From Bacteroidia bacterium (lineage in GTDB: Bacteria > Bacteroidota > Bacteroidia > DATLTG01), in assembly GCA_039924845.1 (NCBI GenBank), contig JBDTAC010000032.1, positions 1 through 32,408 on the forward strand: 32,408 bases of DNA, written 5' to 3'. Shown piece after piece: positions 1,173-32,408 of this stretch. The first letter of the stretch is position 1, and every line of letters begins with the position of its first letter. The notes beneath the pieces were generated by a model, which did no database searches, had not been told where the DNA came from, and saw nothing but the letters and a program-made list of their open reading frames with translations. The position numbers and the translations under genes were made by a program.

Positions 1173-1389
1173 ATTTTTCAATTAGGCACACCTTACTTCT
1201 AAGTCTGATTAACTCATTTCTATTTCAACTCAAATGTGTTGCTTTTCTATTCAAAACATTAATTTTTCAAGTCAATTTTACTTACGTTGAATACCATTCG
1301 CGAGGAATTTTTCTCATTCCTAAAACTATTGAGTTATTCCTTTTCAATAATGTATTCCTTACTAAAAAAATGAAACAGAAAGTACGAAA
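1173..1389. other. AT-rich non-coding stretch
   Basis: No gene is supported here. On the minus strand there is only a 12-codon reading frame beginning MRKIPREW, too short to call. A 6-bp inverted repeat AGGAAT (1303-1308) and ATTCCT (1316-1321) is present without a T tract. Confidence 0.4.
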
Positions 1390-1626
1390 GAATGAATTCT
1401 GACTGAGAGAGAATGAACTGTGACTGAGCCAGTCGAAGCTGTTAGTATCACACTAAGAGCTGTTAGCATGACACTAAGAGCTGTTAGTATGACACTAAGA
1501 ACTGTTAGAATGACACTAAGAACTGTTAGTATGGTACTAAGAACTGTTAGTATGGTACTAAGAGCTCTAAGTATGTTCCTAAGAACTGTTAGTATGACAC
1601 TAAGAGCTGTAAGTAGGACACTAACA
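1390..1626. repeat. 21-bp tandem repeat array
   Basis: Nine head-to-tail 21-bp units run from 1438 to 1626, with consensus GCTGTTAGTATGACACTAAG followed by A. Units 5 and 6 are identical and units 7 and 9 are the most diverged. Across unit borders the sequence CTAAGAGCTGTTAG is palindromic at 12 of 14 positions. Just upstream, two further 21-bp units starting GAATGAA (1390-1410 and 1411-1431) share the period but not the sequence, and are separated from the array by 6 bp. The plus strand is open through the array (a 7-residue repeat like AVSMTLR), but this follows from the period being a multiple of three and there is no gene context. Confidence 0.9.
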
Positions 1627-1666
1627 GCTCATTGTTTCAGTAAAAGAGATTAAGGTGGGTTGGTGC

Positions 1667-2773
1667 TTAATTGGTAGTTCCTGGGTTAAACGGAATACCT
1701 TCTTGTTTCTTTATCTTGTCTTTCAGTTGGATGCCGTGGAGGATTTCAATGTTCACCCCATCCGACAAGCCAGTTTTGATATACGTCCGTACAAATGTTT
1801 GCGGCTTGGTTTCCACATCCACAAAAGTGGAATCGATTTTAAAAACCACCAAACCTTCCGGAAGTGCTAATACACTGTCTTTTTTCGCCAACACAATTTC
1901 GGCATTGGCACTGTAACCAGCACGAATAAAAGTACCGCCTTCTTGTTTCACGGTAGCGCGCACTTCAAACTGAATAGCGCCTTGCACAGTAGTTCCTTGC
2001 GGCGCTATGTACTCCAATGTAGCATGAAACGTTTTATTTTCGATGGCTGCAATTACGATGTTAATGGGCATGCCAATTTTAAGTTTACCTACTTCCGATT
2101 CATCTACGTTTCCTTGAAACATCAGTTGGTTCATGTCGGCAACGTCGGCAATCGTGGTGCCATCATTAAAGGTATTGCTTTCAATCACAGAACTTCCCTT
2201 TTTTACCGGAACGTCCAGCACCATTCCTTCAGAAGTGGAATACACAATGTTGGACGATTGTCCCGATTGTTTGGAAGCTCCGTTCTGCACCAATTGCAAA
2301 TTATTGGTAGACGATTGTAAGTCCGCTTTCGCGAGATCCATTTTCGAGACTTCCTGTGTATACTCCGCGTCAGCAATTACTTTTTGATCATACAATTGTT
2401 TTTCTCTATCAAATACTATTTTCTCGGCATCGTAATTAATTTTGGCTTTATCCAATTGCGTTTCAGCATCATTAAGCGTTACAATGTTCGGAATGATTTT
2501 TATTTCCGCTATTTTTTGTCCGGTTTTAACTAAGTCGCCCGGATTCACAAACAGCTCTTCCACAATACCTGAAACTCTGGGCTTAATCGCGATTTGTTTT
2601 TTAGGCACAATGGATCCGGTAGCAATTGTTTTCTGAATAATATTGGTGATAAGTGGTTGCCCTGTTTCAAAAACAATTGGTTTTTGTTCTGATTGTCGAT
2701 ACAAGAAAACACCGGTCCACACAAACAAAGCGAGAATACCTAAAACAACAATTGTAACGATGATTTTTTTCAT
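1667..2773 (-). CDS. Periplasmic adaptor (HlyD/MacA family) of an ABC efflux system
   Basis: This 368-residue protein has an N-terminal signal-anchor (residues 4-26, hydrophobic after MKK). A lipoyl/barrel-sandwich half-motif follows (IKPRVSGIVEELFVNPGDLVKTGQKIAEI, about 63-92), then an alpha-helical hairpin rich in Asp, Lys and Gln (about 100-165) and beta-barrel and membrane-proximal domains. This matches MacA-type membrane fusion proteins, which link an inner-membrane MacB-type pump to an outer-membrane TolC-type channel. It is the last gene of a three-gene operon with the permease and ATPase, 13 bp after the permease. No outer-membrane channel gene lies in the window. The substrate (macrolide, lipid or peptide) cannot be inferred. 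Confidence 0.9.
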   Translation of the reverse strand: MKKIIVTIVVLGILALFVWTGVFLYRQSEQKPIVFETGQPLITNIIQKTIATGSIVPKKQIAIKPRVSGIVEELFVNPGDLVKTGQKIAEIKIIPNIVTLNDAETQLDKAKINYDAEKIVFDREKQLYDQKVIADAEYTQEVSKMDLAKADLQSSTNNLQLVQNGASKQSGQSSNIVYSTSEGMVLDVPVKKGSSVIESNTFNDGTTIADVADMNQLMFQGNVDESEVGKLKIGMPINIVIAAIENKTFHATLEYIAPQGTTVQGAIQFEVRATVKQEGGTFIRAGYSANAEIVLAKKDSVLALPEGLVVFKIDSTFVDVETKPQTFVRTYIKTGLSDGVNIEILHGIQLKDKIKKQEGIPFNPGTTN

Positions 2774-2786
2774 AAAGAATACTAAA

Positions 2787-4040
2787 TTATTCGGTTCGTA
2801 AAGCTTCTATCGGATTAATTCTGGAGGCTTTCATGGCAGGAATTAATCCCGCTAAGGAGCCAGAAACAACAAGAATAATGGTGGCTGTTATTGCCATGTG
2901 AAAATTAATTTCTGGATGCGAAAAGTAATCACTTTTCACATTGAATTTATCCATCAAAAAGCTAATGCCTTGTATAACTCCCACGCCGCACACCAAACCC
3001 ATATAGCCAGAAACCGAAGTAATGACAATGGATTCCTGAATAATTAATCCGACAATCGACCAAGGAGTGGCGCCCAGTGCTTTGCGTACGCCAATTTCGC
3101 GCGTGCGTTCTTTAACGATGATAAGCATGATATTGCTTACGCCAACAATACCTGCGATAATGGTACCGATACCAACAATCCAGTTAAACACATTGATGCC
3201 CGCAAACAAACCGCTGATGTTTTGAAACTCTTTTTCTGCATTCCACGAACCAATGGCTCGAGCATCGTCAGGAGAGATGTCGTGTTTCAGTTCTAAAAAA
3301 GCTTTTATCTTACTTTCCACCACGGCAACACTAATGCCTGGTTTAATGTTGATAGCGTAACTGTCCACATAATTCACTTGATTGAAAGTACGTTGCAAAG
3401 TACTCAAGGGAATGTAAATGGTTTGAGCATCGTTTCTGCCGTCACCTCCAGAAGTATTTTCCAATTTAAAAACGCCTACCACTTTAAAAAAACTTCCTTT
3501 AATGTTGATGTATTTCCCGATGGGGTCTTCGATTCCGAAAAGCACTTCCGCCACACGCGGTCCAATGACTGCTATTTTTCGCATTTGAGCACCATCGAGC
3601 TCGTCTAAAAATCGTCCTTCACCAATGGTAACTGCTTTTATTTGCCGAATATCTGGCGTAGTGCCCATCACTTGGAAAGAACCGTTCTTCGTATCTCTAC
3701 TTACAGAAAACTCTCCAGAAAGACTCATTCTCGGAGCGATGTAATTGATTTCAGCAATGTTGTCTTTTAAGGCTTTGGTATCTTCGTTGGTAAGCTGTAT
3801 AAAGCGTCCCGGTTGCAAACCATGATAAGGGATAGAAGTCTTTTCTGCCCACACAAATACACTGTTCGTAGCTAAATTCGCGAAATCTCGGTAAACGCCA
3901 TTCTGCAAACCTTTTCCGGTTCCCATTAACAACACCAACATAAATATTCCCCAAAAAACGCCAAATGCCGTAAGCAATGTGCGCAGCTTGTGCTTATTGA
4001 TGGTTGCTAAAATCTCTTGCCACTTGTCGAGGTCGAACAT
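2787..4040 (-). CDS. MacB/FtsX-type ABC transporter permease
   Basis: This 417-residue protein has the MacB-like layout. There is one N-terminal membrane segment (about residues 20-45, LLTAFGVFWGIFMLVLLMGTG). A large periplasmic MacB_PCD domain (about 50-270) follows. The C-terminal FtsX domain has three membrane segments (about 283-305, 330-355 and 380-405) and the coupling motif VKERTREIGVRKALGAT in the cytoplasmic loop. Unlike E. coli MacB the ATPase is a separate gene, 4 bp upstream. With the ATPase and adaptor it forms a mechanotransmission-type export pump in the inner membrane. Confidence 0.92.
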   Translation of the reverse strand: MFDLDKWQEILATINKHKLRTLLTAFGVFWGIFMLVLLMGTGKGLQNGVYRDFANLATNSVFVWAEKTSIPYHGLQPGRFIQLTNEDTKALKDNIAEINYIAPRMSLSGEFSVSRDTKNGSFQVMGTTPDIRQIKAVTIGEGRFLDELDGAQMRKIAVIGPRVAEVLFGIEDPIGKYINIKGSFFKVVGVFKLENTSGGDGRNDAQTIYIPLSTLQRTFNQVNYVDSYAINIKPGISVAVVESKIKAFLELKHDISPDDARAIGSWNAEKEFQNISGLFAGINVFNWIVGIGTIIAGIVGVSNIMLIIVKERTREIGVRKALGATPWSIVGLIIQESIVITSVSGYMGLVCGVGVIQGISFLMDKFNVKSDYFSHPEINFHMAITATIILVVSGSLAGLIPAMKASRINPIEALRTE

Positions 4041-19073: not shown

Positions 19074-20288
19074 TCAATTCGTAAAATCAGGATACAATAA
19101 ATATTTTTTACGAATTTGTTTGAAGATAGTCAAAGCTGGTTGCCATGTTTTTCGAATGTCATCTTCGCTCATACCCTTTATTATCTGCTCTTTCAAGACA
19201 TCGTTTCCAGCAAGTGAATTAAAATAAGAGTTGAAAAAATTCTTTTTGTCGGGATACGTTTTGTACATTCCTTCTATCCAATACAAATACATTTTTTGAT
19301 AATTTTTCATAAACACCTCTCCGAAATTTCGCAAATCATAACCAGTGCATTTTTGATTTTCAAACGGAGGATCTTTACTTTCTCCATCAATACTTTTGGG
19401 CGTAAACGAAAACGGAGCATCTTTTATTTCCGGATTTCCAATTGCTTGAAAAGGAAAATCTGTTCCGCGCGCCACGCTAATTACAGTTCCTTCAAATAAT
19501 GCTAGCGACGGATACAAATACACGGCAGCCATATTTGGTAAATTTGGCGAAGGTTTCACAGGCAATTGATACCAATCGTTGTGCGAATAATTTTTCACTT
19601 TAATGCAAGTTAAATCACATTTTTCAGCATTTGGCAACCAACCTTCGCCGTTTAACATTTGCGCGTATTCCGCCGCCGTCATTCCGTACACAATAGGAAC
19701 AGGATCTAAGCCCACAAAGGATTTGTATTTTATATCCAATACTGGACCATCCACAAAATAACCATTGGGATTAGGGCGATCCAGCACAATTAATTTAACA
19801 TGATTTTCGGCGCAAGCCTCCATTACGTAATGCAAAGTAGAAATATAGGTGTAAAAACGAACGCCCACATCTTGCAAATCATACACCACAACATCAATGT
19901 TTTTAAGGTCTTCGGCGCTTGGTTTAAAATGATCGCCATAAAGCGAAACAACATTTAAGCCTGTTTTTTTGTCTTTCGAATTATTGAAATTTTCGCCTGC
20001 ATCTTTGTTTCCACGAAAACCGTGCTCGGGAGAAAATATTTTTTTCAAGGAAACACCCAATGAAATCAAGCTATCCGCCGTATTTATTTTTCCGATAACA
20101 GAAGTTTGATTGGCAACAATCGCAACATTTTTTCCTTGTAAAAGAGACAAGTATAAATTGAATTGTTGTGCGCCAACACTCACATCGGCAGCAGTTTTAA
20201 CGGTATTGGTAACGGGTTCAATCACTTCTTGGGCAAACGAAATCCCGAAAAAGAAAAAAAGAATGCCACTCCAAAAATATTTTTTCAT
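19074..20288 (-). CDS. namZ: NamZ-type exo-beta-N-acetylmuramidase (DUF1343)
   Basis: This 404-residue exported protein has a signal peptide (MKKYFWSGILFFFFGISFAQ, cleavage after about residue 20). It is followed by the DUF1343/YbbC domain with KKIFSPEHGFRG, VVYDLQDVGVRFYTYISTL, LDRPNPNG, SVARGTDFPFQ and the C-terminal NSYFNSLAG. Characterised members remove MurNAc from the non-reducing end of peptidoglycan fragments, so it is likely a periplasmic wall-recycling enzyme. I prefer ATG 20288; an upstream ATG at 20333 would bury the signal peptide and lies before a TACTTTTG promoter box. No MurNAc transporter or amidase gene is adjacent. Confidence 0.88.
   Translation of the reverse strand: MKKYFWSGILFFFFGISFAQEVIEPVTNTVKTAADVSVGAQQFNLYLSLLQGKNVAIVANQTSVIGKINTADSLISLGVSLKKIFSPEHGFRGNKDAGENFNNSKDKKTGLNVVSLYGDHFKPSAEDLKNIDVVVYDLQDVGVRFYTYISTLHYVMEACAENHVKLIVLDRPNPNGYFVDGPVLDIKYKSFVGLDPVPIVYGMTAAEYAQMLNGEGWLPNAEKCDLTCIKVKNYSHNDWYQLPVKPSPNLPNMAAVYLYPSLALFEGTVISVARGTDFPFQAIGNPEIKDAPFSFTPKSIDGESKDPPFENQKCTGYDLRNFGEVFMKNYQKMYLYWIEGMYKTYPDKKNFFNSYFNSLAGNDVLKEQIIKGMSEDDIRKTWQPALTIFKQIRKKYLLYPDFTN
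20269..20288. repeat. Partial AT palindrome at the namZ start
   Basis: CTCCAAAAATATTTTTTCAT; on the minus strand it is the ATG and codes MKKYFW of the signal peptide. Confidence 0.5.
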
Positions 20289-20312
20289 ACTGACGTATTT
20301 ACGGATAAAAAA

Positions 20313-20320
20313 CAAAAGTA
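20313..20320 (-). promoter_or_regulatory. Candidate -7 box TACTTTTG for namZ
   Basis: The minus strand matches TAnnTTTG, 24 nt upstream of ATG 20288. Its position supports 20288 rather than 20333 as the start. Confidence 0.5.
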
Positions 20321-20367
20321 AGAAACTGTTCATGCTTTTCGAATTTTTTTTTGCTTTCGAAAAACGC

Positions 20368-20391: not shown

Positions 20392-20547
20392 TCGTTTTTT
20401 AAACGTCAAAAACATAGCATTTTCGAAATTTTTTTTTGAGAAAATTTAACCTCTTTATATTTAGCTTTAGGAATAAATAAAAAAAAACACCTGTATCTAA
20501 AAAAAAATAGATATTTTTGATACTTGATTTTTCTTTACCGAAAAACT

Positions 20548-20555
20548 TATTTTTG
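20548..20555 (+). promoter_or_regulatory. Candidate promoter (TTG, 21 bp, TATTTTTG) for the PorE-like gene
   Basis: The -7 box TATTTTTG lies 25 nt before ATG 20581, and a TTG at 20524-20526 is 21 bp upstream as a possible -33 element. This is the best-spaced promoter in the window. Confidence 0.55.
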
Positions 20556-20580
20556 TTTCATTAAAAAAAATATTTTATCC

Positions 20581-22635
20581 ATGCGTAATCGTTACCTTAC
20601 TTTCCTGTCATTTCTTTTTGTAACTCAAACCTTGTTTTCGCAGGAAACCGGAACTTCATATAAAGATAAATTTACAGAAGGGAATTATCTGCTTTTAGAG
20701 CAAAATTACCCTATTGCACTCCAAAATTTCTTGGATGCCTACCATATTGATTCTTCTAATGCGAATATTAATTACAAAGTGGGTTTGTGCTATTTAAATT
20801 CCTCTTCTCAAAAAAATAAAGCATTGCTTTTTTTAGAAAAAGCCGTACAAAATGTGAGTAAGAATTACGATTATCTTGGAGTAGGTGAAAAACATGCTCC
20901 CATTAACGCATATTATTATTTAGGAAGAGCGTATCATTTGGCGTATCGCTTTGATGATGCTATTGCCAGCTACCAAAAATTTGAAACGTTTCTTAAAAAA
21001 AGAGACGGTGATTTAAAATCGGATGCTGATCATCAAATCGAAATGTGTCAAAACGGAAAACTCTTTTATGCAGCTCCAGGTGATGTACGAATTACCAATT
21101 TGGGAGATAGTGTGAATTCTATTTATCCAGATTATTGTCCAGTTCTTTCTGCGGATGAGAATACACTTATTTTTACTTCTCGTAGACCAGATAATACCAT
21201 TGGTAATCAAAAAACAATAGACGACCAATATTATGAACACATTTACATTTGCTACAAAAAAGCAGACGGAACTTGGACATCGCCGGTTTCGATTAGTTCG
21301 AATATTAATTCGGATGGTGTAAATAATGCTACTGTTGGCTTATCTGCCGACGGGCAAAGTTTGTTGATTTTTAAAGGAGATGTTGGCGGCGGTGATTTAT
21401 ACATTAGTACTTTAAACGGAAACGATTGGACCAAACCAATAGCACTTGGATCTGATATCAACACGAACTCTTGGGAGCCAAGTGCATCCATTAGCGCAGA
21501 TGGAAATACCATTTATTTTGTAAGCGATAGAAAGGGAGGATTGGGCGGAAGAGATATTTGGAAATGCGTGAAACTCCCGAACGGGGAGTGGAGTAAAGCC
21601 AGTAATTTGGGCGCTCCTATCAACACACCTTACGATGAAGATGGTCCTTTTATTCATCCGGATGGAAAAACATTGTTTTTTAGCTCTAAAGGACATAACA
21701 GTATGGGCGGTTTTGATGTGTTTTATTCCATTAAATCGGATACCGGATGGTCAAAGCCACAAAATATGGGCTATCCTATCAATACGCCAGATGATGAAGT
21801 GTATTATGTTGTTTCTCCAGATGGAAAACGCGCTTATTATTCTTCCGACAAAGCTGGAGGATACGGTGAAAAGGACATTTACATGATTAATTTTCCACAT
21901 TCAGTGGAACAACCACTTACTTTGATAAAAGGTGTTATTACCCCACCTGCAGGACAAGAATTACCAGATGGAATAACCATTGTTGTAACAAATACAACAA
22001 GTGGAGAAACAGTTGGTACCTATAAGCCCATCAAACGCAACGGTAACTACACATTTATTTTGCAACCGAATGCAGATTACAAAGTATCATATCAGTTAAA
22101 TGATAAAGAGTTTTACTCGGAAGACATCAATGTTCCTGCCGGATCTTCTTTTCAAGAATTAGACAGAGCCATAAAATTAGATGAAGTAAATATGCACGGA
22201 GGAATTGCTGCAGCATTAGATTCTGTTACGAAGCCGAAAGCGGATAATAAGAAGATAAATACTTCCGGATTGGAATACGCGTTGTTTTTCAAATACAATG
22301 TCAATGAAATTGATGTGAATGAAACTTCCTTCAAACAATTTGTGGACACGCTTTACACGACTTTACAAAACAATCCGAATTTAAAAATTGTGATAGAATC
22401 AAGTGCTTCCAAAGTGCCAACGCGGAAATATAAATCCAATAAAAAATTGGCTGAGCTGAGAGCAAATCATGCAAAAGAACAAATTGTAACAGCTTTAAAG
22501 GCAAAAGGATTAGGAAAAAGTCAATTGAAATTTCATAAAAAAGCTTTGGTGGGCGGACCAAAATACAATGCTGATTATGAACTTCGCAAAGCAATTTATG
22601 AACAATTCCAATTTGTGAAAATAAAACTGGAGTAA
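20581..22635 (+). CDS. PorE-like envelope protein: TPR, PD40 propeller, regulatory domain, OmpA-like
   Basis: This 684-residue protein has a signal peptide (MRNRYLTFLSFLFVTQTLFS, no lipobox cysteine). TPR repeats follow (about 25-160, NYLLLEQNYPIALQNFLDAY and YYLGRAYHLAYRFDDAIASY), then WD40-like PD40 blades (about 175-435, e.g. SADENTLIFTSRRPD, SADGNTIYFVSDRKGG, HPDGKTLFFSSKGHNSMGG). After these come a carboxypeptidase-regulatory-like domain (about 445-540) and an OmpA-like C-terminal domain (about 570-684). This order matches PorE of the type IX secretion system, which links the outer-membrane machinery to peptidoglycan. In the OmpA part the Arg of LAELRANHAK is kept, but the usual TD..G segment reads SSASKVPT. 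It could be a PorE paralogue rather than the T9SS component itself. Confidence 0.82.
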   Translation: MRNRYLTFLSFLFVTQTLFSQETGTSYKDKFTEGNYLLLEQNYPIALQNFLDAYHIDSSNANINYKVGLCYLNSSSQKNKALLFLEKAVQNVSKNYDYLGVGEKHAPINAYYYLGRAYHLAYRFDDAIASYQKFETFLKKRDGDLKSDADHQIEMCQNGKLFYAAPGDVRITNLGDSVNSIYPDYCPVLSADENTLIFTSRRPDNTIGNQKTIDDQYYEHIYICYKKADGTWTSPVSISSNINSDGVNNATVGLSADGQSLLIFKGDVGGGDLYISTLNGNDWTKPIALGSDINTNSWEPSASISADGNTIYFVSDRKGGLGGRDIWKCVKLPNGEWSKASNLGAPINTPYDEDGPFIHPDGKTLFFSSKGHNSMGGFDVFYSIKSDTGWSKPQNMGYPINTPDDEVYYVVSPDGKRAYYSSDKAGGYGEKDIYMINFPHSVEQPLTLIKGVITPPAGQELPDGITIVVTNTTSGETVGTYKPIKRNGNYTFILQPNADYKVSYQLNDKEFYSEDINVPAGSSFQELDRAIKLDEVNMHGGIAAALDSVTKPKADNKKINTSGLEYALFFKYNVNEIDVNETSFKQFVDTLYTTLQNNPNLKIVIESSASKVPTRKYKSNKKLAELRANHAKEQIVTALKAKGLGKSQLKFHKKALVGGPKYNADYELRKAIYEQFQFVKIKLE

Positions 22636-22748: not shown

Positions 22749-22769
22749 TTGAAAAAATATTTTTTTGAG
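22749..22769. repeat. AT palindrome copy before the 22780 gene
   Basis: TTGAAAAAA and TTTTTTTGA arms, ending 10 nt before the ATG. Confidence 0.8.
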
Positions 22770-22779
22770 TGAAGAAAAA

Positions 22780-24339
22780 ATGACATTTAAAACACGAAAG
22801 GTTCTTTTATTATTGCTGTTTGTTACGTTCTGTTTTTTTGCTTTTTCCCAACAAGACGAACATGGTTTCATTGATCCGAGAGCTGCGAAGGAGCATTTTT
22901 CACATAAAAATTATTTGGCGGCGATGAAAGTTTACAAAGAACTCATCAAGCAAGAACCTCAAAATGTGGAATATCATTACCGCCTCGCTCAATGTTATCT
23001 GTATACACATCTTGAAAAAGAAACAGCCATTACCGAACTCAAATTTGTAACTGCCCATAATTACGATAATGAAGCGTGGTTTGATCTCGGCAAAGCCTAT
23101 CATTATGCCAATCATTTTGACGATGCTATCAAAGCGTTTACTCGATTCAAAGAAAAAGCAGATTCTAAAGACGCTGCAGAAGCAGACCGCGAAATAGAAA
23201 TGTGTAATAATGGAAAGCAATTGGTAAAATACCCTGTCAATGTTACGTTTGAGAATTTAGGTCATTTGATAAATACTGAGTTTCCTGATTATTATCCCTT
23301 TGTTCCAGACGATGAATCCTTTCTGATTTTTACTTCGCGCAGAGCCGAATCAATGGGTGGACGCAAAGAAATGGATGGTTATTATTCTTCCGATATATTT
23401 ATTTCAACTGCCGTAAATGGGAAATGGACAAAGCCAAAAAATATCGGTCCAGAAATAAATACTCCTTTAGATGAGCAAGCTGTTGGATTAACTCCCGATG
23501 GAAACAAAATGATTATTTACCTCGATCACATTGATAAATTTGGCGACTTATACGAATCTGATCGAAAAGGAAAAAACTTTGAACATCTCTATAAATTAAA
23601 TGAAAACATCAATGGAGGTTTTGAAACTGCTGGCTCTGTTTCGCCCGACGGAAATACTTTTTTCTTTGCCAGCGAACGTCCAGGTGGATTAGGAGAAACA
23701 GATATTTACATGGCTCGAAAACTTCCGAACGGACAATGGGCTTTGCCGCAAAATTTAGGATCCAATATCAATACCAAATACAAAGAAGATTTTCCCCGTA
23801 TGTCGGACGATGGAAAAACGCTTTATTTCGCTTCACAAGGGCATTCCAGCATGGGCGATTTTGATATTTTTAAAGCGGAATGGAATCCGGATGATAACAC
23901 TTGGAGTGAGCCTGTTAATCTCGGTTATCCGATTAATACTTCTGGCGATGATCGTTCGATTTGTTTTACAGAAAACAATCGTGTGGCTTATCTTTCCGCT
24001 GTCCGTGATGGTGGTTACGGTGATTATGATATTTACCGTGTTACGTTTAATAATACCAATCAGCGCTACGAAATTTTTACTGGAAAAGTAAATTCTACCG
24101 ATTCTACCATAGCAATTAGTTCGCAAATTACGGCAATCAATACCAAAACAAACGATTCCCTTTCCTTTATTCCCATACAAAGTAGTGGAAAATACGTAAT
24201 GGCACTTATTCCCGGAATATACAACATCACCATTACAGCCAATGGCTACAAAACAATTAGCGATAAAATAATTGTGTTTGATATCGGCACATTTAAAGGC
24301 GAAACCAAAAAAAATTATCTCTTAGAAAAAACGCCCTAA
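22780..24339 (+). CDS. TPR and PD40-propeller envelope protein, paralogue of the upstream gene
   Basis: This 519-residue protein has a signal peptide (KVLLLLLFVTFCFFAFSQ, no lipobox). TPR repeats (about 30-150, HFSHKNYLAAMKVYKELIKQ and WFDLGKAYHYANHFDDAIKA) are followed by PD40 blades (about 165-425; SPDGNTFFFASERPGGLGET, SDDGKTLYFASQGHSSMGDF) and a C-terminal carboxypeptidase-regulatory-like domain (about 430-519). It parallels the upstream gene domain for domain but ends before any OmpA-like module. I chose ATG 22780; a TTG at 22765 lies in the AT palindrome. A separate terminator and a weak promoter-like TATTTTG (22725-22731) suggest independent transcription. Role unknown; envelope or T9SS accessory is an inference. 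Confidence 0.82.
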   Translation: MTFKTRKVLLLLLFVTFCFFAFSQQDEHGFIDPRAAKEHFSHKNYLAAMKVYKELIKQEPQNVEYHYRLAQCYLYTHLEKETAITELKFVTAHNYDNEAWFDLGKAYHYANHFDDAIKAFTRFKEKADSKDAAEADREIEMCNNGKQLVKYPVNVTFENLGHLINTEFPDYYPFVPDDESFLIFTSRRAESMGGRKEMDGYYSSDIFISTAVNGKWTKPKNIGPEINTPLDEQAVGLTPDGNKMIIYLDHIDKFGDLYESDRKGKNFEHLYKLNENINGGFETAGSVSPDGNTFFFASERPGGLGETDIYMARKLPNGQWALPQNLGSNINTKYKEDFPRMSDDGKTLYFASQGHSSMGDFDIFKAEWNPDDNTWSEPVNLGYPINTSGDDRSICFTENNRVAYLSAVRDGGYGDYDIYRVTFNNTNQRYEIFTGKVNSTDSTIAISSQITAINTKTNDSLSFIPIQSSGKYVMALIPGIYNITITANGYKTISDKIIVFDIGTFKGETKKNYLLEKTP

Positions 24340-29500: not shown

Positions 29501-29542
29501 AAAAAAAGCGTCTCGGAAAATTAATTTTTCGAGGCGCTTTTT
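29501..29542 (+). terminator. Terminator after icd, built around an AT palindrome core
   Basis: AAAAAGCGTCTCGGAAAAT (29503-29521) pairs with ATTTTTCGAGGCGCTTTTT (29524-29542) over 19 bp with two wobbles, ending in T5. The inner CTCGGAAAA and TTTTTCGAG resemble the dispersed palindrome. Confidence 0.9.
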
Positions 29543-29563
29543 AGGTTGTTCTTTCTTTTTTAT

Positions 29564-29571
29564 TATCTTTG
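29564..29571 (+). promoter_or_regulatory. Candidate -7 box TATCTTTG for the adhesin gene
   Basis: Perfect TAnnTTTG match, but ending only 4 nt before ATG 29576, which would give an almost leaderless mRNA. A TTG at 29546-29548 is slightly too close for a -33 element. Confidence 0.35.
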
Positions 29572-29575
29572 GAAA

Positions 29576-32408
29576 ATGCTATCGCGAAAAAAAAGTAAAT
29601 TATCCGTAAAAATAATTTACGTTTGTTTCCTCACATTAATTTTTTTTCTGCCCAATAAGATGGAGGCGCAATTCATTCTAAATGGAAGTGCTACAATTAT
29701 TACGCCTCAATGTTCTTCCGCAACTACAACATATCAATTAACCCCCGATTTAGGCGCACAAGCCGGAGAAATTTGGTATGCTACGCAAATTAGTTTAGCC
29801 AATCGGTTTGACATTCAATTTCAGGTTTTTCTTGGTACGAAAGATTATTATGGAGGTAGTGGTGCAGACGGAGTCTGTTTCGTTTTTCAACAACAAAGTA
29901 CCAATGCCGGTAGTGCTGGAGGAGGAATGGGATTTGGAGGTATAACACCTTCTGTTGGTGTAGAATTTGACACGTATGAAAATGGTTGGGATCCTGCTTT
30001 TTGTCATACTGCAATTGAAAAAAATGGAGATGTAAATCACACAGATGGTTCGGGTAATAATCTGGCAGGTCCAGTTCAACTTAGCTCTACTAATCCAGAT
30101 TTACCAGATGGAGCTTGGCACAGTATTGAAATTATATGGGATCCCATAACAAAAAAATTATCAGAGTATTGTGATTGTGTTTTTCGTTTATCCTACACAG
30201 GTGATATCGTAAGTACTGTTTTTGGTGGAAATCCAAACGTTTATTGGGGATTTACTGCAGGAACGGGCGGAGCCTCAAATCTACAAGAGATTTGCATCAC
30301 ACATTCTTATCTAACTAACAATCTTCGAGATACCTTGATATGCTCAGGCAACTCAGTACCATTAACTGTTTCAGGTGGAGTTTCGTACTCTTGGTCACCC
30401 GCTGCTGGTTTAAGTTCTACAACAACCGCATCTGTTACTGCAACACCAGCCACCACAACGAGTTATACGGTTTCAATAACAAATAATTGCGGATTAATTA
30501 GTAGAGACAGTGCCACCATAACAGTTAATCCGAATCCGGTTGTTACGGTTAATTCAACTGCGATATGCGCAGGCACTAATGCTACCCTCACGGGAAATGG
30601 AGCAACAGCTTATTCGTGGAGTACAGGATCAATAACAAATCCAATTACGGTAATACCAGCAACAACCACTACTTACACATTAACAGGAACAACGACAGGT
30701 TGTACGGGTACAGCCATTGCAACAGTTACGGTCAATGTATTGCCAACAATAACCGTAAATTCAGCAACAATATGTGCAGGTACAGGTGCAACTTTAACGG
30801 GCGTAGGACCAGCAGGTACGACATATAGTTGGAGTACAGGCGCAACAACTAATCCGATAACAGTAAGTCCTGCCTCAACAACGAGTTATACCGTAACAGG
30901 AACAGATGCGAATGGTTGTACAGGTTCAGCAGTAGCAACAGTTACAGTAGGTTCAACTCTGTCTATAACAGCAAGTTCACCAAGTATTTGTTCTGGTAGC
31001 TCAATAAGTTTAAGTGCAAGTGGAGGTACTACTTATTCCTGGAGTACAGGTTCCACTACAAATCCAATTACTGTAACACCACTTACTACTACAACCTATA
31101 CCGTAACAGGTACTAGTAGTACTTGTAGTGGAAGCGCAACAGTTACAGTTACAGTTGATGTTTTAAAAGCAACGGCTGCTGGTTTTCCGGCTACTTGTAA
31201 TGGAAGTTGCAATGGCTATGCAGTAGTAATTCCATCAGGAGGTACTTTACCATATACTTATTTATGGACACCAGGTGGTAATACTACAGCTAATGCGAAT
31301 AATCTTTGTGCAGGAAATTATTGTATAAAAGTATCCGATGCCAATGGATGTAGTATAGATACTTGTGTCATAATAACGGAGCCGACAGCTCTTAATGTAA
31401 GTATTCCTACCTCAAGCAATGATTCGTGTAATAGATTATGCGATGGCACAGCAACTGGCTTGACAACGGGAGGAACAGCTCCTTATACCTATTCTTGGAA
31501 TACAGTACCTGTTCAAACTACAGCGGAAGCTATATCCTTGTGTGCAGGCACCTATACTTTAACCGCCAACGATGCAGCAGGTTGTAGCAGTACTGCAAGT
31601 GTTACCATTACACAACCAACACAGATAACAGTAACACCTTCAGCCGCCACAACTATATGTATCGGACAAAGCACAACAATTAGTTCAACTGCATCAGGTG
31701 GAACACCTGCTTATACGTATAGTTGGAATGCAATCTATAACGGACAAAATTATACGGTGAGTCCTACAAGTACCCCAATTACTTATACGGTGATAGCCAA
31801 CGATGCTAATGGATGTAAATCCACACCACAAACGGTAACGGTAAGTCTTAATCCTCCGCTGAATGTTATTGCGAAAAGCGACACCTCTTTGTGTATTGGA
31901 GGACATGCTACCTTGAACGCTATCGCAACAGGTGGAAACGGAAACTACAATTATGTATGGCAGCCGGGAGCTTTTTCAGGCAGCACAATAAGTCTAACTC
32001 CAATCACTACTACTATATATACGGTAACAGTAACAGACAACTGCGGTACACCTTCGGATTCGAGTACGGTAACAGTAAAGGTTAATCCATTGCCAACAGC
32101 GAGCTTTTCGGCAGATACGACCAGCGGTTGTTATCCACTTTGTGTAACCTTTACCAATTTAAGCACACCTCCAAGTGCATCCGCTACCTGGGAGTTTGGC
32201 GATGGCAATTCGGCAACAACAGTGGGAAGTGCAAGCTATTGTTATCAAACAGCGGGTCAGTTTAGTGTAAGCTTAGCGGTAAAAGATAGTTTAGGATGCA
32301 GTAATAGTACAACGATAGGTAATTTAATAACGGTTTATCCACATCCTACTGCCAACTTTAATATGAGTCCGAATCCGGTAACGATATTAGAACCGACAGT
32401 TTTCTTTA
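29576..32408 (+). CDS. Large secreted adhesin, L-type lectin plus Ig-like, SprB and PKD repeats (3' truncated)
   Basis: 944 codons are visible and the gene continues past the right edge. After a signal peptide (about 1-31, ending MEAQ) comes an L-type (legume-like) lectin domain (about 35-242), with GADGVCFVFQQQ, GMGFGGITPSVGVEFDTYEN and DGAWHSIEIIWDP; the Asp and Asn residues fit Ca2+ and sugar binding. Then follow four Ig-like repeats of about 70 residues (250-530, pattern YSWSTG..TNPITV.P.TTT.YTVTG), two SprB repeats (531-603, 604-683: NGSCNGYAVV, GGT.PYTY.W), two more Ig-like repeats (684-840), one PKD domain (841-925, WEFGDGNS) and the start of another. A C-terminal T9SS sorting domain is expected but lies outside. 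Likely a surface-exposed carbohydrate-binding adhesin. Confidence 0.85.
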   Translation, partial: MLSRKKSKLSVKIIYVCFLTLIFFLPNKMEAQFILNGSATIITPQCSSATTTYQLTPDLGAQAGEIWYATQISLANRFDIQFQVFLGTKDYYGGSGADGVCFVFQQQSTNAGSAGGGMGFGGITPSVGVEFDTYENGWDPAFCHTAIEKNGDVNHTDGSGNNLAGPVQLSSTNPDLPDGAWHSIEIIWDPITKKLSEYCDCVFRLSYTGDIVSTVFGGNPNVYWGFTAGTGGASNLQEICITHSYLTNNLRDTLICSGNSVPLTVSGGVSYSWSPAAGLSSTTTASVTATPATTTSYTVSITNNCGLISRDSATITVNPNPVVTVNSTAICAGTNATLTGNGATAYSWSTGSITNPITVIPATTTTYTLTGTTTGCTGTAIATVTVNVLPTITVNSATICAGTGATLTGVGPAGTTYSWSTGATTNPITVSPASTTSYTVTGTDANGCTGSAVATVTVGSTLSITASSPSICSGSSISLSASGGTTYSWSTGSTTNPITVTPLTTTTYTVTGTSSTCSGSATVTVTVDVLKATAAGFPATCNGSCNGYAVVIPSGGTLPYTYLWTPGGNTTANANNLCAGNYCIKVSDANGCSIDTCVIITEPTALNVSIPTSSNDSCNRLCDGTATGLTTGGTAPYTYSWNTVPVQTTAEAISLCAGTYTLTANDAAGCSSTASVTITQPTQITVTPSAATTICIGQSTTISSTASGGTPAYTYSWNAIYNGQNYTVSPTSTPITYTVIANDANGCKSTPQTVTVSLNPPLNVIAKSDTSLCIGGHATLNAIATGGNGNYNYVWQPGAFSGSTISLTPITTTIYTVTVTDNCGTPSDSSTVTVKVNPLPTASFSADTTSGCYPLCVTFTNLSTPPSASATWEFGDGNSATTVGSASYCYQTAGQFSVSLAVKDSLGCSNSTTIGNLITVYPHPTANFNMSPNPVTILEPTVFF
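30323..31165 (+). repeat. Four in-frame Ig-like repeats of about 210 bp within the adhesin
   Basis: Tandem units of about 70 codons (residues 250-530) share CAGT.ATLTG, YSWSTG and a Thr-rich YTVTGT segment. They are clearly similar at the DNA level (recurring tggagtacagg and accgtaacagg), so length variation by recombination is possible. Confidence 0.8.

Follow-up and report, generated by a model that had tools for sequence, protein, structure and literature searches.

Lectin-headed proteins of the Bacteroidota that combine an L-type lectin domain (PF18483) with a sorting domain of the type IX secretion system (T9SS; PF13585 or PF18962) follow a common order: a lectin head, a stalk of Ig-, SprB- and PKD-type modules and the sorting domain at the C-terminus. 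The same order is found in the adhesin analysed here, the end of which lies beyond the available sequence. Its gene is located at the right edge of a 32408-nucleotide stretch of DNA from a Bacteroidia bacterium (hereafter the window), which is the entire contig C32 (JBDTAC010000032.1), and the sequence ends at that edge. The source genome (G000) comprises 2.66 Mb in 101 contigs and is 99.1% complete; in the following, C-numbers denote contigs of this genome and L-numbers extracted loci.

Several described adhesins resemble this protein in part. According to two studies, RemA of Flavobacterium johnsoniae likewise carries a lectin domain and reaches the cell surface as an adhesin through the T9SS, and it acts in gliding and cell-cell aggregation (PMC12618676, PMC8481357); unlike the protein of the window, it is described as having a type A C-terminal domain (CTD) and has been shown to act in gliding (PMC12618676). 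F. johnsoniae SprB shares the SprB-type repeats, of which two stretches are present here, and the type-B signal that is expected here; however, PMC9143113 presents it as a repetitive protein of 669 kDa that needs SprF. The proteins YwfG (Lactococcus lactis) and SraP (Staphylococcus aureus) likewise have a stalk with an L-type lectin close to its tip, and the calcium and mannose residues of YwfG are kept in the protein studied here. Both are wall proteins of Gram-positive bacteria with other stalks and anchors, the lectin domain of RemA presumably belongs to another family than that of the protein studied here, and SprB is not known to have a lectin head. Among solved structures, a legume-lectin domain from the archaeon Methanocaldococcus jannaschii (7elv, 7exo) comes closest; no paper on this domain was found in our literature search. 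Even the closest lectin-headed relatives differ in the stalk: L161 has eight SprB stretches and no Ig_7 match, and L163 (as L048) has three SprB stretches.

We interpret the protein as a T9SS-exported, surface-anchored and calcium-dependent glycan adhesin, most of whose gene is present in the window, and assign this reading a probability of roughly 75%. The open reading frame (ORF) at 29576-32407 (+) has 944 codons and starts at the first ATG at 29576, with an in-frame TTG further upstream at 29546; its 3' part is cut by the contig end, and it is a genuine open frame running off the contig. Pfam was run on all 944 residues, and the six families listed all exceed their curated cut-offs, and the NCBIfam models yielded nothing at E <= 0.01. 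The protein begins with an apparent Sec signal peptide (29576..29668), recognized by eye in the translation from its K-rich start, hydrophobic core and terminal ...EAQ. It is followed by the lectin domain (residues 27-242, 29654..30301; PF18483, Lectin_L-type_dom, E 2.5e-48, 165 bits against a cut-off of 78) and by a stalk, whose Ig and SprB module edges were drawn by eye. The stalk comprises the 'neck' module Ig1 (30311..30535), which is closest to lectin-headed relatives; Ig2-Ig4 (30536..31159), supported by the module comparison described below and by three Ig_7 stretches in Pfam (E 1.3e-11); SprB modules 1 (31160..31390) and 2 (31391..31621), corresponding to two Pfam SprB stretches (E 5.6e-10); Ig5 and Ig6 (31622..32089), delimited by the module comparison and named by eye; and PKD domain 1 (32090..32344; PKD_4, E 5.5e-10). 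A second PKD domain, recognized by collinearity with L161 and with an adhesin on C54, is cut by the contig end after its first 21 residues (32345..32407). All of these features are on the forward strand, and the Pfam matches bear out the mosaic of lectin, Ig-like, SprB and PKD modules that had been proposed in the initial annotation.

The structure model of the lectin domain, built on 78 sequences, has a mean predicted local distance difference test (pLDDT) score of 86.9. Its best match among solved structures is the M. jannaschii domain 7elv (Foldseek E 2.3e-19; VIA Z 31.1, root-mean-square deviation 1.6 over 201 residues, 38% identity), followed by SraP and YwfG, both tips of bacterial adhesins, which reach VIA Z 23.6 each, level with plant lectins. 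Thus, sequence family and jelly-roll fold both place the domain among the L-type lectins. In YwfG, calcium is bound by D152, Y154 (main chain), N156 and D166, the mannose contacts include N156 and D117, and the preferred ligand is alpha-1,2-mannobiose, according to PMC9815576. In the alignment of lectins, the predicted sugar- and metal-site residues D98, E130, D132, Y134, N136, D139 and H144 span 29867..30007 (+), and D98, D132, Y134, N136 and D139 align with D117, D152, Y154, N156 and D166 of YwfG. D98, D132, N136 and H144 are found in 78 of 78 aligned lectins, D139 in 76 and E130, which is presumably the position of the second-metal ligand of legume lectins, in 66. Of two cultivated relatives, Flavisolibacter nicotianae (L225) lacks E130 and Segetibacter sp. 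(L239) carries E in place of D139. Since the residues aligned with YwfG are present and conserved over the 78 lectins, the calcium/sugar pocket appears, by sequence, to be intact, and the Ca2+ ligands that the initial annotation had suggested looking for are present in this alignment. The lectin tip is therefore probably sugar-binding. It could be argued that the fold has been retained as a structural cap that binds no sugar, as E130 is lost in 12 of the 78 lectins and the full six-residue set is present in 64 and incomplete in 14; the lectin of the window, however, keeps every site residue, and a mere cap is very improbable. For the uncultured Bacteroidota, the protein provides a clear and well-conserved case of a lectin of the calcium type that the T9SS probably brings to the cell surface, and the prediction of its binding site is a concrete one.

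The missing C-terminus was approached through relatives. At least 486 stretches related to the head were found in the GTDB genome set, of which 80 lectin-headed loci from named records were kept; 72 of these have a complete 3' end, including L168, which is open at its 5' end. When the last 150 residues were compared with CHU_C (type B, PF13585) and Por_Secre_tail (type A, PF18962), 66 of the 72 relatives had a type-B and five a type-A domain (L162, L176, L205, L206 and L234), with no overlap, and one had neither; the sorting signal that had been anticipated for the missing end is thus carried by 71 of 72 relatives. L161, whose head is 69% identical to that of the window, parallels the protein to its last residue (residues 346-944 against 508-1127 at 38%, and 9-824 against 13-848 at 44%) and extends 159 residues past the cut, through the second PKD domain and a type-B signal (CHU_C). 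The C54 adhesin of the own genome is 45% identical over residues 709-944 and likewise continues into a PKD domain and a type-B signal. Because the lectin fold and the conserved calcium and sugar residues are joined by the sorting signals of the relatives, the proposal of a glycan-targeting surface adhesin is supported. The adhesin is an ordinary, well-conserved member of a large known Bacteroidota family: lectin carriers were found in 26 of 99 searched genomes, including the own genome, which has just this one. In the literature, no paper was found that joins SprB repeat, lectin and type IX secretion, or L-type lectin, Bacteroidetes and gliding motility, and none of the titles listed by looser searches concerns lectin-headed SprB adhesins, which is weak evidence of absence as most subscription journals lay outside the search.

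The search for T9SS machinery in the own genome covered SprA, GldL, GldJ and PorP-like proteins. SprA is split into two pieces, which lie at edges of contigs C18 and C93, GldL and GldJ were found, and of seven PorP-like genes four lie directly beside a type-B signal. Type-B signals were matched 31 times, 28 of them above the cut-off, and type-A signals 70 times, 60 of them above the cut-off, with five on tails that also scored as type B. Five orphan sorting tails are located at contig edges: three of type B on C77 (107 aa), C81 (61 aa) and C97 (69 aa), and two of type A on C73 (93 aa) and C61 (109 aa). The tails of C77 and C81 (5'-cut; L147 and L154) are closest in subtype, with 44-51% identity to the tails of L172, L169 and L161. 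They are 98.7% identical to each other over 150 bases of the CTD region, beginning exactly at the edge of C81, which fits, without proving it, one tail common to two genes. C77 and C81 are candidates only for the true end of the window's protein, with no link proven; the last 200 bases of the contig have no match elsewhere in the own genome better than E 0.86.

Some observations weigh against the proposed function and export route. The protein's own sorting signal lies beyond the contig end and is hence not seen, and the type-B tail on C97 and the type-A tails on C73 and C61 remain candidates for the true end as well. The relatives with type-A tails include L162, one of the two closest heads, and the subtype is therefore not certain. 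L166 (7875-9257) is the sole one of the 72 relatives that lacks a sorting domain in frame, possibly due to an assembly frameshift. Furthermore, relatives do not as a rule have a cognate barrel gene beside the lectin gene: a search of 1,096 ORFs of at least 150 aa in the 80 loci, 62 of which contain a complete lectin gene and more than 1.2 kb downstream, detected nothing PorP-like at E <= 1e-5, and the best remaining score was E 0.0027. In leave-one-out runs the profile recovered 7 of 7 sequences with E 1.1e-17 or better; all seven stem from one genome, and distant barrels could be missed. Finally, one L-type fold can bind quite different sugars: SraP, which has the same fold as YwfG, binds sialylated ligands.

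In the proposed mechanism, the signal peptide would direct the adhesin through the Sec pathway, and the C-terminal sorting domain beyond the contig end, most likely of type B as judged from the relatives and published type-B work, would take it through SprA. A PorP/SprF-like barrel would then hold it on the outer membrane, in line with the anchoring of type-B cargo by such barrels that is described in PMC9143113. The Ig/SprB/PKD stalk would keep the head away from the cell, and the L-type lectin tip, whose fold and residues are in place, is predicted to bind glycan via a calcium-ordered pocket. The likely effect would be attachment of the cell to polysaccharide, which may belong to the matrix it makes itself, to a neighbour or to debris from plants or fungi. 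As type-B anchoring has been published, as it depends on the CTD whether an adhesin is recruited to the gliding track or remains in place, and both cases are known (PMC12618676), and as RemA provides a precedent, the grip on the glycan might be either fixed or moved by the gliding motor. In the mobile case, resembling RemA and SprB, the sorting domain would hand the adhesin over to the helical track and the lectin would grip polysaccharide while the motor pulls. GldJ and GldL are present in the genome, F. johnsoniae RemA is reported as a T9SS adhesin with a lectin domain that is involved in gliding, and the type-B CTD of SprB is stated to suffice for placing other cargo on the helical track (PMC12618676). 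However, the same source notes that some type-B cargo does not join the gliding machinery, and the 80 loci of the relatives contain no SprF/PorP-like neighbour. SprB modules alone do not indicate gliding either, because such modules match in 91 of the 99 searched genomes; we thus consider a mobile gliding adhesin rather doubtful.

The glycan adhesin might also recognize the cell's own surface, that is, bind its own exopolysaccharide (EPS) or O-antigen and build aggregates or a biofilm. According to PMC8481357, RemA overexpression leads to cell aggregation via galactose-containing EPS. Upstream of the lectin gene of L161 lie genes for a glycosyltransferase, an O-antigen ligase (Wzy_C) and an ABC transporter, and an ABC-2 permease and a PMT_2 protein are encoded upstream of that of L164, which is a possible hint at binding of self-glycans. 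The gene of the window, however, sits amid housekeeping genes, as seen from Pfam matches of the window ORFs, and other relatives have different neighbourhoods, so that self-recognition can be put forward only tentatively. Attachment to prey or to a eukaryotic host, along the lines of the suggestion in the initial annotation, appears unlikely: nothing in the neighbourhood of the window's gene points to a host, and no host is named in the titles of the metagenome bins that contain the 14 closest heads.

The stalk has a composite history. Three sets served for comparison of the modules, namely the adhesins of the own genome, the ORFs in the 14 lectin-headed loci that are closest and the ORFs in all 80 loci; the best-scoring hits covering at least 70% of a module were taken. 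The head has no match in the own genome and is 73% identical to relatives, and Ig1 is also closer to relatives (69%) than to the own genome (55-58%). For the following modules the nearest sequences are found in the own genome: 77% for Ig2 (42% in the closest 14, 59% in all 80), 81% for Ig3 (49% and 55%), 69% for Ig4 (40-42% and 56%) and 84% for SprB1 (59% in both sets). SprB2 is about even (54-57% in the own genome, 54% in relatives), Ig5 (53-55% against 44-47%) and Ig6 (46-47% against 36-42%) are closer to relatives, and PKD1 is closer to the own genome (63% against 49%). The protein thus looks like a mosaic, in which the nearest relatives of the head differ from those of part of the stalk.

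In a wider search with Ig2-Ig4 against 294 other genomes, with at most ten candidates scored per genome, the best other genome reached 195 bits at 59% identity for the three modules together, compared to 173 bits at 62% for the highest-scoring site elsewhere in the own genome. Because other genomes outscore the own genome, Ig2-Ig4 appear to be simply common adhesin modules, and their homogenisation within the own genome is weakened as an explanation. For SprB1, 98 other genomes were searched with at most 57 candidates scored per genome; a copy in an adhesin on C55 of the own genome reached 123.5 bits at 84%, and the best among the listed matches of other genomes 94.7 bits at 63%. Homogenisation would accordingly hold better for SprB1 than for Ig2-Ig4. 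The C55 adhesin is not lectin-headed, and Pfam finds only SprB in the 548 residues available for it. Ig2-Ig4 share 57-70% identity at the protein and 68-75% at the DNA level (70-71% ungapped over 90-147 nt), and in their region Tandem Repeats Finder detected only two short runs with periods of 9 and 6 and no domain-length array. DNA identities are given for Ig2-Ig4 only, as those of the other pairs come from very short end-free alignments. The initial annotation was hence right about the presence of Ig repeats but overstated their similarity, and its suggestion that their number could vary is not supported by copies of about 70% DNA identity that form no near-identical tandem array.

Some relatives carry similar stalks side by side. 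In L161 (JABCZY010000055.1, 3669-11692), a gene with a Gly-rich head directly follows the lectin-headed gene, and 2,675 bases of the first gene (positions 1183-3857), with the CTD included, recur at 100% identity in the second gene; near its end, this second copy contains a 100-base N gap. In short-read assemblies, a collapsed repeat may be filled with a single consensus at both of its passes, and the exact identity may be an assembly artefact, though the two stalk copies would be expected to be very alike. In L162 (7731-12084), from a different bin, the same two kinds of head occur in the same order, with 528 bases of stalk aligning at 84.7% and the last 137 bases before the contig end matching exactly. 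The Gly-rich head was not detected at E <= 1e-10 in ORFs of at least 150 aa of the other 78 loci, some of which have short flanks. L187, L193, L199 and L219 show 72-78% DNA identity between the stalk and neighbouring sequence. Near-identical neighbouring stalks are an exception among lectin-headed loci, because the remaining 74 lack any stalk-neighbour match that reaches 60 bases at 70% identity or higher. In the own genome, PLD-like and DUF7948 heads are found on related stalks. It is possible, though speculative, that heads and stalks behave as separate units, with gene conversion or tandem duplication keeping the stalk and anchor of sibling genes near-uniform while heads are swapped, and that the lectin is one such interchangeable tip. 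If true, the cell could diversify what it adheres to without altering export or anchorage, a simple route to change adhesion.

The adhesin gene is preceded by an intrinsic-terminator-like hairpin (29503..29542, +) with 18 pairs, six of them G-C, and a short T-rich tail; one such hairpin was found, compared to a mean of 0.3 in shuffled sequences. It is located between the isocitrate dehydrogenase gene on the 5' side and the adhesin gene on the 3' side, and as it separates the two, the adhesin gene may well form its own transcription unit. At 29546-29571, a TTG and TATCTTTG have, by eye, the spacing of a Bacteroidota promoter and end only four bases before the ATG at 29576; if this is true, the adhesin transcript would be nearly leaderless. 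In the loci of the 80 relatives (up to 8 kb on each side), tblastn with the isocitrate dehydrogenase returned nothing at E <= 1e-5, and its pairing with the adhesin was not seen as a conserved locus within those flanks. L166 has look-alike polysaccharide-type neighbours, as noted by eye only. Further upstream in the window, 20524-22632 and 22765-24336 encode two beta-propeller (PD40) proteins, one of which also has TPR; both resemble the PorE and CHU_0125 NCBIfam families with scores far under the curated cut-offs, and an OmpA match is absent from both (Pfam, E <= 1e-5). A gene for a NamZ-type exo-beta-N-acetylmuramidase is located at 19077-20333 (-).
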